Source of the DNA: Fimbriimonadia bacterium
GTDB lineage: Bacteria; Armatimonadota; Fimbriimonadia; Fimbriimonadales; JABRVX01
DNA: 64,000 nt
Assembly: GCA_039961735.1 (NCBI GenBank)
Contig: JABRVX010000009.1
Location: 62,001-126,000 of the forward strand
Reading direction: 5' to 3'
In this document: positions 40,801-43,462 of the stretch, in pieces
How positions within the stretch are numbered: the stretch's first letter is position 1
Layout of the letters: each line of letters starts with the position of its first letter
The notes under the pieces: model-generated
Seen by the model: the letters and a program-made list of their open reading frames with translations, nothing else
What the model was told of the DNA's origin: nothing
The model's database searches: none
Position numbers and translations under genes: made by a program

Positions 40801-40941
40801 GGTAAGCCTAGGGCTACGTCGGCCACACGGCACGATACTGCCGCGTACGAGAAGGTCCCACACTAGGGCAGCGGCGCCAGTTGGCTGTGAGGCTTCGCCA
40901 CGCCCACAGTAGCCTCAGGTGATAACTGACAAACACGTGAT

Positions 40942-40974
40942 GCTGCTCGGCACCACAGGGCAGTGCCGAGCAGC
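40942..40974 (-). terminator. Hairpin between the octahaem cytochrome and carB
   Basis: Perfect 12-bp inverted repeat (GCTGCTCGGCAC at 40942-40953, GTGCCGAGCAGC at 40963-40974) with a nine-base loop, 30 bases past the cytochrome stop. There is no T tract, so it may end or stabilise the transcript. Confidence 0.55.
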
Positions 40975-41004
40975 ACCCAGTTGGAAAGCAACCCTTATCC
41001 GCGC

Positions 41005-42297
41005 CTAGTTCGCCTGCTTCTTCGCCCTACGCATCTCCTCGGCCAGAGTCTTGATCTCCGTTAGGTCACGCTGCATTTCGCTCCACCCGTACCACAACGC
41101 GTAGTCCGGGTTGGCGTGAAACGTGCCCTGGAAAGTACGCATCCGATGCTCGAGGAACATGACGAACAGCTTCTGCTCGATCTTCGTCGGTGCATCGTGG
41201 AAAGTCAGTAGGTCCGGGAAAGCTGCTCCGTAGCCTTCGGGCTTCTGCAGGGTTCCGTCCGCATAGAGCCCCGCGACGATGCGGATAGCCTCTGCCATCA
41301 GGTGGTCCGCTTCCTTGATCATCTCATCACCCTTTGCCAGCGCGTGACCAGCGAAGTTCGCCGAGTGGCACTGGTTGCATGTCTTGAGCATCTTGTCCCG
41401 CTCTCTCTGCCAGTCCTCTTGGGTCAAGCGGGCAATGTCTGCGGCCTTCACGGCTTCCAGCCTCGCCGTCGGTTTGCCGTCGGGGTCCAGCACGCCGAGT
41501 CCTTGGAGTATCGTCACCCTGTCTGCAGCCCACTGCTTGTCCTCGGGCATGGGCAGCCTAACCGCAAGAAAGCCCCAAGCGGTGCGCACGCCGTGATGCC
41601 CGTCCTGCATGTGGCACGTCTGGCACGTCGGAGCCGCCGTGCCCTCCGGCAAGACTCCGTTCTGCTTCAACAACGCCCGCACGCCATGCTTCGAAGAGGA
41701 GTACATCTCCCAGTGTGGATGGTCGAAGCCCATATGGCAGGTTTGGCAGGCTTGAGGCTGCCGCGCCTCCGCCAGCGAGAAGGCGTGACGGGTGTGACAC
41801 GAGTCGCACGAGGCCACGCCGAAGGTGTTGGGGCCGCCTTTGATCTGCTTGATCTCCTCCTCCGACTTGAGGCCGATCTTGTGGCAGCCGCCACATCCAG
41901 CCATTCCGATGGTCAGCGCCATCGGCTGATAGTGGATTGTCGGCATTGCCTTCATTGCAACCCAAGCCTTCGCGTGCTTGCCGCTCTTGAACTGCTCGAC
42001 CTGCTCCTCATGGCAGTCGTTGCAGGTGTTCGGCGTCGGAATCTTTACCTTCGCCACGTCGTCTGCGGACTTGTGTTCGTTGCCGTGGCACACCGAGCAA
42101 TCTATGTCGTTCTGACTGTGCTTGCTCAGCTTCCATTCCGCCACAATCTGGGGGGTCACCTTCAGATGGCAGGAAACGCAGTCGCTAGCTTGGTCTTGCT
42201 CGCCCTTCTTCGTGAAGTTTGCCAGTCCGAACCACGGCAGCGCGCTACCGATTCCCACAGTCGCCAGCGCAGCCAGTGCCGTTCTGCCAACACGCAT
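41005..42297 (-). CDS. Octahaem cytochrome c, hydroxylamine oxidoreductase (HAO)-like
   Basis: 430 residues from ATG 42297 (AGGAGG upstream). A signal peptide or N-anchor (MRVGRTALAALATVGIGSAL) precedes eight CxxCH motifs: CVSCH, CSVCH, CNDCH, CGGCH, CDSCH, CQTCH, CQTCH, CNQCH. Their spacing and the surrounding sequence (SGKHAKAWVAMKAMPTIHYQ, DHPHWEMYSSSKHGVRALL, HANPDYALWYGWSEMQRDLT) resemble the HAO-type octahaem family. True HAO oxidises hydroxylamine at a haem P460 made by a Tyr crosslink; reductive relatives lack it and reduce nitrite or hydroxylamine. Which applies here needs structure-based alignment. No other nitrogen-cycle gene is visible. It would be periplasmic. Its leader is long and structured. 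Confidence 0.8.
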   Translation of the reverse strand: MRVGRTALAALATVGIGSALPWFGLANFTKKGEQDQASDCVSCHLKVTPQIVAEWKLSKHSQNDIDCSVCHGNEHKSADDVAKVKIPTPNTCNDCHEEQVEQFKSGKHAKAWVAMKAMPTIHYQPMALTIGMAGCGGCHKIGLKSEEEIKQIKGGPNTFGVASCDSCHTRHAFSLAEARQPQACQTCHMGFDHPHWEMYSSSKHGVRALLKQNGVLPEGTAAPTCQTCHMQDGHHGVRTAWGFLAVRLPMPEDKQWAADRVTILQGLGVLDPDGKPTARLEAVKAADIARLTQEDWQRERDKMLKTCNQCHSANFAGHALAKGDEMIKEADHLMAEAIRIVAGLYADGTLQKPEGYGAAFPDLLTFHDAPTKIEQKLFVMFLEHRMRTFQGTFHANPDYALWYGWSEMQRDLTEIKTLAEEMRRAKKQAN

Positions 42298-42519
42298 CGT
42301 TGTCCTCCTACACCAGTAGAGTAGTACTTCGCTGCTTCGGAGACAAGCCGCCTGTCGGGCCAAAGCATGCGAACCTCGTCAGGATTCTGCGCATGCCGAC
42401 ATGAATCCTGCCCGGTTCTGAGTGAAAAAGCCCCTGCCCAAAAAGGGTGGGGAGAAGCGGTGCGGGGGAGGGCCGCTTCTCCCACAGGGGTGATATGGTG
42501 GGGTGGAGACCGGGTTTAC
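42298..42519 (-). promoter_or_regulatory. Structured leader with internal terminator before the cytochrome gene
   Basis: From the predicted start near 42519 to the ATG at 42297 is about 220 bases. It contains an 11-bp stem (GGGAGAAGCGG with CCGCTTCTCCC, 42450-42460 and 42473-42483), an outer stem CCCCTG/CAGGGG (42431-42436 and 42485-42490), and then CTTTTTC on the minus strand. A third stem, CAGGATTC/GAATCCTG (42380-42387 and 42403-42410), lies between the T run and the gene. This looks like a terminator hairpin plus another element, that is, an attenuator or riboswitch-like leader, or a short RNA ending there. I do not match it to a known riboswitch. Confidence 0.5.
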
Positions 42520-42525
42520 GGGTGC

Positions 42526-42555
42526 ATGGTATCACAGGGTCCGGGCATCTGTCAA
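42526..42555 (-). promoter_or_regulatory. Promoter of the octahaem cytochrome
   Basis: Minus strand TTGACA (42550-42555), 18-base spacer, TACCAT (42526-42531) preceded by TGA, an extended -10. Bases 42556-42721 upstream of it hold no gene that I can support. Confidence 0.65.
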
Positions 42556-42721: not shown

Positions 42722-43462
42722 TTAGGGGGTTGGCAGTTTCGTGCCCGACCCGCTCTCCACACCCCCCGGTTCGTGACGCACGAGATTGGCCGCTGCGAAG
42801 TCGGACTGAGGATCGGATCTGAATCCGTTCCGGTCGAGGAGCACCGTGAGAAGAATGTCGCGGTACATGCGAGCGCGTTCTATCGCACCCCGGAGGAGTC
42901 CCAACTTCTCTTCCTTCATCGGGTGCGTGACGCCGTGCAAGGGAACACGTCGGACGGGCCACCGTCTGCGCCTGGCATAGCGGTTGATGCGCACTTCGAC
43001 GTCCATCCGCGAGCAGTCGAGTCTCGGAACTTCGAGGAATAGGCTACGACGAATCGCTCGTTGGCCGCTGATGTTCGGAGAGACGCGCTGTGCGAGGTCC
43101 GTCAGAAAACGCCCGCCGCAGAAGCGACCGATAGACATGGCTGCCTCGCCACTCAGCACCGGCTCGAGCAACACGCTAACGTGGCAGGGCTGCAGGTTCA
43201 GAAGGTCCGCATCCAAGAAGAGCAGGACGTCCGCCGAGGTGACTGTCGCGCCGGCCCGCATCGCTGCGCCCTTCCCCACGTTGTGAGGGAGGCGGTAGAC
43301 GCGGACGTCCGGGTGGCGCATTGCGGCCCCCGCGGTTCCGTCCGACGAACCGTCGTCCACCACGATGATCTCGGACACCAACGGACACGCCGCAACGGCT
43401 TCCAAAACCTGGCAGATACGACCGGCCTCGTTGAACGCCGGGACGATGCAAGCGACCCTCAT
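42722..43462 (-). CDS. Family 2 glycosyltransferase
   Basis: 246 residues. GT-A fold: VPAFNEAGRICQVLEAV, IIVVDDGSSDGTAGAA and LLFLDADLLNL, the last carrying the metal-binding DxD. NVGKGAAMRAGA is the usual polyprenol-phosphate sugar transferase loop, so a dolichol-phosphate-mannose-synthase-like role with undecaprenyl phosphate is plausible. No membrane helix is evident. Its ATG overlaps the stop of the M48 gene by four bases, and it is the last gene of that operon. Confidence 0.82.
   Translation of the reverse strand: MRVACIVPAFNEAGRICQVLEAVAACPLVSEIIVVDDGSSDGTAGAAMRHPDVRVYRLPHNVGKGAAMRAGATVTSADVLLFLDADLLNLQPCHVSVLLEPVLSGEAAMSIGRFCGGRFLTDLAQRVSPNISGQRAIRRSLFLEVPRLDCSRMDVEVRINRYARRRRWPVRRVPLHGVTHPMKEEKLGLLRGAIERARMYRDILLTVLLDRNGFRSDPQSDFAAANLVRHEPGGVESGSGTKLPTP

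Follow-up and report, generated by a model that had tools for sequence, protein, structure and literature searches.

An intrinsic-terminator hairpin in the leader of an HAO-like octahaem cytochrome gene from a Fimbriimonadia bacterium, possibly acting as a read-through brake

Introduction

Sites of premature transcription termination in 5' untranslated regions (5' UTRs) have been mapped in Escherichia coli (eLife 2021, PMC7815308) and Pseudomonas aeruginosa (PMC8297930), and Rli51, located in the leader of the Listeria gene mpl, is both an attenuator and a small RNA (PMC11394854). Given that these systems amply document early termination within leaders, the terminator described here belongs to a known kind, of which it is a new instance from one genome. 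Here we present the features of this leader, which precedes the gene of an HAO-like octahaem cytochrome c in a 64,000-nt stretch of DNA (the window; contig JABRVX010000009.1, positions 62,001 to 126,000), together with the explanations that may account for them.

Sequence data and methods

Promoter, terminator, order, spacing and the accompanying statistics were computed. Promoter-like sites were scored with an E. coli-type matrix at each position of a 577-kb sample of the same genome (1,147,016 positions; 18% of the genome), consisting of one entire contig (C9) and the beginnings of 20 further contigs (L094-L105 and L113-L132). Regarding the relatives of the upstream glycosyltransferase gene, 6 of 11 were readable on the right strand; the other 5 lay on the opposite strand and were disregarded. 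A summary of the features is shown in Table 1.

Table 1. Features of the octahaem cytochrome locus (positions in the window)
Feature	Positions	Strand	Description	Basis
Glycosyltransferase (GT2) gene	42722..43462	(-)	upstream; ends 166 bp before P1 and 238 nt before the inner hairpin	
Promoter P1	42526..42555	(-)	TTGACA-18-TACCAT, TG-extended, sigma-70-type	sequence and score
P1 -35 box	42555-42550	(-)	TTGACA	
P1 -10 box	42531-42526	(-)	TACCAT; 18-nt spacer ends in TGA	
Terminator stem	42431..42490	(-)	three-way junction	-34.1 kcal/mol; pair probabilities 0.93-1.0 in full leader
Outer 6-bp stem	42490-42485 / 42436-42431	(-)	CCCCTG / CAGGGG	
Inner 11-bp stem	42483-42473 / 42460-42450	(-)	GGGAGAAGCGG / CCGCTTCTCCC	
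U-tract	42424..42430	(-)	CTTTTTC (C, TTTTT, C after the outer stem); a ~96-nt RNA would be expected to end here	sequence
Remaining leader	42298..42423	(-)	structured, with 8-bp stem and Shine-Dalgarno AGGAGG	sequence; folding (z = -2.5)
8-bp stem	42410-42403 / 42387-42380	(-)	CAGGATTC / GAATCCTG	
Imperfect palindrome	42356-42342		GACAGGCGGCTTGTC; overlaps the P2 -35	
Weak alternative promoter P2	42318..42346	(-)	TTGTCT-17-TACTCT	score 10.1
Octahaem HAO-like cytochrome c gene	41005..42297	(-)	430 aa, 8 CxxCH, N-terminal signal-like stretch	
GC-rich hairpin	40941..40975	(-)	13 bp, 29 nt past the cytochrome stop codon	

Terminator, promoter and remaining leader

The leader carries a real and clear-cut strong intrinsic-terminator hairpin, which by sequence and folding has the make-up of a Rho-independent terminator, i.e., a stable GC-rich stem followed by the U-rich tract. 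The 11-bp stem also has a TTTTT of its own 5 bases downstream (42444-42440), a feature absent from the earlier note on this DNA, and since this run is enclosed by the 6-bp outer stem, the structure is a three-way junction and not a plain hairpin: the outer stem holds two elements, namely the 11-bp stem (42483-42450) and a small hairpin, CCC-TTTTT-GGG. Of 20,000 shuffles of the leader, 13 contained a perfect arm of at least 11 bp, and 2 combined an arm of 9 bp or longer with TTTTT. The energy is the lowest among the 30 U-tailed intergenic hairpins of the 577-kb sample, and the folding z was -3.7 for the 96-nt piece and -3.3 for the whole leader. The hairpin is single-copy in the genome, and a repeat or mobile element was rejected on this ground.

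P1 scored 14.15, which corresponds to rank 26 among the 1,147,016 positions. The E. coli-type consensus is evidently in use in this genome, because 23 of the 26 top-scoring sites were intergenic, whereas only ~10% of the sampled sequence is. Sites scoring at least 14 numbered 19, compared with 0.45 expected from shuffled intergenic DNA, and the estimated false-discovery fraction at the score of P1 was ~0.02; when the 424-nt intergenic stretch that carries P1 was shuffled, 19 of 2000 sequences attained its score. The predicted transcription start is at ~42519, 29 nt ahead of the terminator stem.

Between the U-tract and the cytochrome ATG at 42297 lie 126 nt of structured leader, in which the Shine-Dalgarno sequence precedes the start codon. 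When the read-through transcript was modelled, the Shine-Dalgarno sequence was found to be partly paired, some of it with the extreme 5' end (probabilities ~0.3-0.5); this pairing is given little weight. The strong promoter (TTGACA-18-TGA-TACCAT, 42526-42555), the 11-bp stem within a 6-bp outer stem followed by CTTTTTC and the additional 8-bp stem after the T run had all been claimed in the earlier note, and all were recovered at the positions given there, the promoter with a false rate of ~2% and the nested stems beyond chance expectation.

A segment of the remaining leader (42369-42338; 32 bases, 88%) resembles a stretch of L110 in which a phosphotransferase-like gene encodes the motif NMLWREGRLVS; this likeness is probably due to chance, or possibly marks a gene remnant.

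Cytochrome gene and its neighbours

The claim of an HAO-like octahaem cytochrome downstream was borne out by the eight CxxCH motifs and by matches to chains of HAO structures at E values of ~1e-29 to 1e-31. In oxidative HAO, what we take to be the tyrosine cross-linked to the P460 haem stands at a position where the pairwise alignment (NPDYALWYGW in this cytochrome versus NPGGWTYTEGW) places a leucine, although tyrosines are nearby; a leucine so placed would fit a reductive rather than an oxidative enzyme. The 13-bp hairpin behind the gene is probably the cytochrome's own terminator, and the gene thus looks like a single-gene transcription unit. Upstream on the same strand lies an operon of an acyltransferase, an M48 peptidase and the glycosyltransferase. 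Recurrent neighbours among the octahaem orthologues are few (DUF438/hemerythrin, NapH-like ferredoxin and ResB), and none of them adjoins the cytochrome gene of the window, so that a conserved neighbourhood was rejected.

Hairpins elsewhere in the genome

End-of-gene hairpins in the 577-kb sample are perfect GC-rich stems of 10-14 bp, mostly located 20-45 nt past stop codons and followed by T-poor tails (mean 3.3 T in 10). The leader hairpin is likewise a perfect GC-rich stem, but lies 238 nt past the upstream stop codon and is followed by TTTTT. This lineage may terminate transcription in a manner other than the textbook mode. U-tailed terminators being rare in the sample, a strong one within a leader is conspicuous, which, if the terminator works, would matter for the reading of this genome.

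A GC-rich stem of this kind between a strong promoter and a gene at most 450 nt away was observed in 2 of 34 cases, namely the cytochrome and a homoserine dehydrogenase on contig C17 of this genome (L128:10500-12027). The latter has the joint top-scoring promoter of the sample (19.8); its leader holds an ORF (MATMRMRHATLDVATPAHILSGAIRRR) and, 20 nt ahead of the start codon, a GC-rich hairpin of 11 bp, and is a candidate attenuator of the threonine/methionine type without a U tract. Several intergenic copies of a repeated inverted element, CGTCATGCTGAGC...GAAGCATGACG, were noted as well (L113, L118 and L132).

Relatives and conservation

The distribution of the cytochrome gene is patchy: among 113 genomes from the order, 4 carry the gene or a close orthologue and no further one from the same family turned up, and 80 orthologues with 67-78% identity are spread over many phyla. 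Coding DNA aligns readily (69-72%), whereas comparison of the window leader with the 80 orthologue leaders yielded no convincing sequence similarity, and the leaders of the three same-order orthologues hold no counterpart in either sequence or placement. A DNA search for homologous leaders in 291 genomes of the phylum returned two short matches, in L109 behind a PQQ-domain-like gene and in L110 within a coding gene; both are chance-like and were rejected, and apart from them the ~96-nt RNA has no relative there.

Regarding orthologues with a divergent upstream gene, terminator-like hairpins occurred in 4 of 12 leaders, as compared with 3 of 75 leaders of neighbouring genes (Fisher p = 0.006, or p = 0.026 when L028, the start of which is uncertain, is excluded); tandem orthologues showed no such excess (3 of 31 versus 16 of 115). 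The excess was found post hoc and is a hint at most. L022, L088 and L070 have their top promoter-like site past the terminator, and the order promoter, terminator, gene was seen among the inspected orthologue leaders only in L069.

Exact TTGAY-N4-RTCAA boxes (FNR/DNR type) are present in the orthologue leaders L077, L083, L088 and L091. Boxes of this type within one mismatch were found in 8 of 81 orthologue leaders and 22 of 477 controls, a weak excess; the leader in the window has no FNR/CRP-type box within two mismatches. Visual inspection of L002 and L003 revealed palindromes that might just as well be terminators of the upstream genes, and no claim is made for them as regulatory boxes.

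Capacity of the leader for switching

When the growing RNA was folded, a 5-bp stem formed first (-6.5 kcal/mol) and was superseded by the 11-bp stem, after which the outer stem formed. The 5-bp stem was the sole rival in the folding of the leader, and a competitive antiterminator fold was not found. With the 11-bp stem forbidden, the first 110 nt folded at best at -19.2 instead of -43.8 kcal/mol, a cost of 24.6 kcal/mol. Nor was a leader peptide found: there is no ATG in 42519-42424, and a single GTG frame exists, which begins at the hairpin and lacks a Shine-Dalgarno sequence, so that a ribosome-mediated attenuator was rejected for want of a short ORF ahead of or overlapping the 5' arm of the terminator. 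A known riboswitch or other Rfam RNA was likewise rejected, since no family matched the window at its gathering score (the best sub-threshold score, anti-hemB with 19.4 of 49.5 bits, is chance-like). Judging from these folds, a self-contained RNA switch in the leader is unlikely, and with neither a competing antiterminator nor a leader peptide, any regulation of read-through needs a trans factor.

The proposal of the earlier note, a candidate attenuator or new cis-regulatory RNA, thus stands in part. P1 (42555-42526), the terminator (42490-42424) and the ATG (42297) follow each other as expected of a leader attenuator, and this order supports the statement that a terminator so placed implies conditional read-through or a short RNA. 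The switch and the new class of RNA were not supported, there being no competing fold, leader peptide, Rfam match or similar orthologue leader; the mutually exclusive folds that had been suggested as a check did not appear.

Interpretation

We tentatively favour, at slightly less than an even chance, the explanation that the hairpin is an intrinsic terminator in the 5' UTR which acts as a brake on read-through and releases a ~96-nt RNA. Transcription would start at P1; once ~90 nt have been made, the 11-bp stem would fold, followed by the 6-bp stem around it, whereupon the majority of polymerases would release the RNA at CUUUUUC. The cytochrome would be made only from the fraction that reads through, and the terminator would thereby cap the output of this costly eight-haem protein at a low level; regulation, if any, would be exerted by a trans factor such as a protein, a small RNA or a polymerase-modifying factor. 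That P1 is the promoter of the gene, that termination is incomplete and that expression is affected are steps which we infer. The reading draws on the position of P1 among the best promoter-like sites, which are concentrated between genes, on the strongest U-tailed intergenic hairpin of the sample, which is beyond chance, on its distance from the upstream stop codon as compared with end-of-gene hairpins, on the structured leader past the hairpin, on the terminator-like hairpin that the cytochrome has of its own, and on the presence of only one weak promoter-like site after the leader hairpin. Against it stand the missing similarity among orthologous leaders, including the three same-order orthologues that lack the hairpin, and the cost of forbidding the 11-bp stem, which speaks against an RNA switch. 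A terminator this strong might also allow almost no read-through, which would favour a separate promoter such as P2.

The possibility that P2, rather than P1, could serve the cytochrome gene leads to the next explanation, a stand-alone small RNA gene of ~96 nt (P1 to 42424), with the cytochrome transcribed from P2 just ahead of the Shine-Dalgarno sequence; we consider it possible but on the whole doubtful. A promoter, fewer than 100 nt and a strong terminator are classic small-RNA anatomy, and if P2 alone drives the cytochrome, the stretch from P1 to the terminator is a small RNA gene. Regarding a transcription start downstream of 42430, which the earlier note had named as speaking against its proposal, P2 (42346-42318) is what was found; it would yield a very short 5' UTR, and a palindrome overlaps its -35 box. 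However, P2 is weak: the false-discovery estimate is 0.52, i.e., about half of the intergenic sites at such scores are expected by chance, and when the 133-nt stretch carrying it was shuffled, 92 of 2000 sequences attained a score of 10.0. The short RNA, too, is without a relative in Rfam or, apart from the chance-like matches, in the phylum genomes.

It is improbable that the hairpin instead terminates the upstream operon, giving it a long 3' UTR and insulating the cytochrome gene. The operon is on the same strand with no gene in between and no other stable hairpin right after the glycosyltransferase stop codon, and the hairpin would block upstream read-through in any case, but a strong promoter intervenes between stop codon and hairpin, the distance is far from the typical 20-45 nt, terminal hairpins of this genome mostly lack T runs, and none of the 6 right-strand glycosyltransferase relatives has such an intergenic hairpin after the gene.

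An undescribed class of regulated cis-acting RNA (riboswitch-like or with a protein-bound antiterminator) that conveys a nitrogen or redox signal to the cytochrome is very unlikely, because the significant folding of the whole leader and the excess of hairpins in divergent orthologue leaders are set against the absence of a competing fold, the little room that 29 nt offer for a sensing domain, the uncertain start of one of the four positive leaders and the different order of elements in three of the inspected orthologue leaders. Just as unlikely is a dedicated regulator, in which the three-way junction of the ~96-nt RNA would be opened by a protein or small RNA upon a nitrogen-oxide or redox signal. 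To our knowledge, no riboregulation has previously been described for an HAO-like octahaem cytochrome.

Comparison with known systems

If the terminator works, early termination serves in this little-studied bacterium as a brake on an expensive multihaem cytochrome, and a nitrogen-cycle type of enzyme joins the leader-controlled genes as a clean and easily tested case. The succession of promoter, hairpin with U-tract in the leader, and gene is the same as at the sites in E. coli and P. aeruginosa, which can also yield short RNAs (PMC7815308, PMC8297930); the 3' ends were measured there, whereas the terminator of the cytochrome leader is predicted from sequence and folding. With Rli51 the leader would share an RNA of ~100 nt arising from early termination, and read-through into the gene, but two alternative folds are predicted for Rli51, a terminator and, with greater stability, an antiterminator (PMC11394854), to which the cytochrome leader has nothing comparable, its terminator being the fold that prevails.
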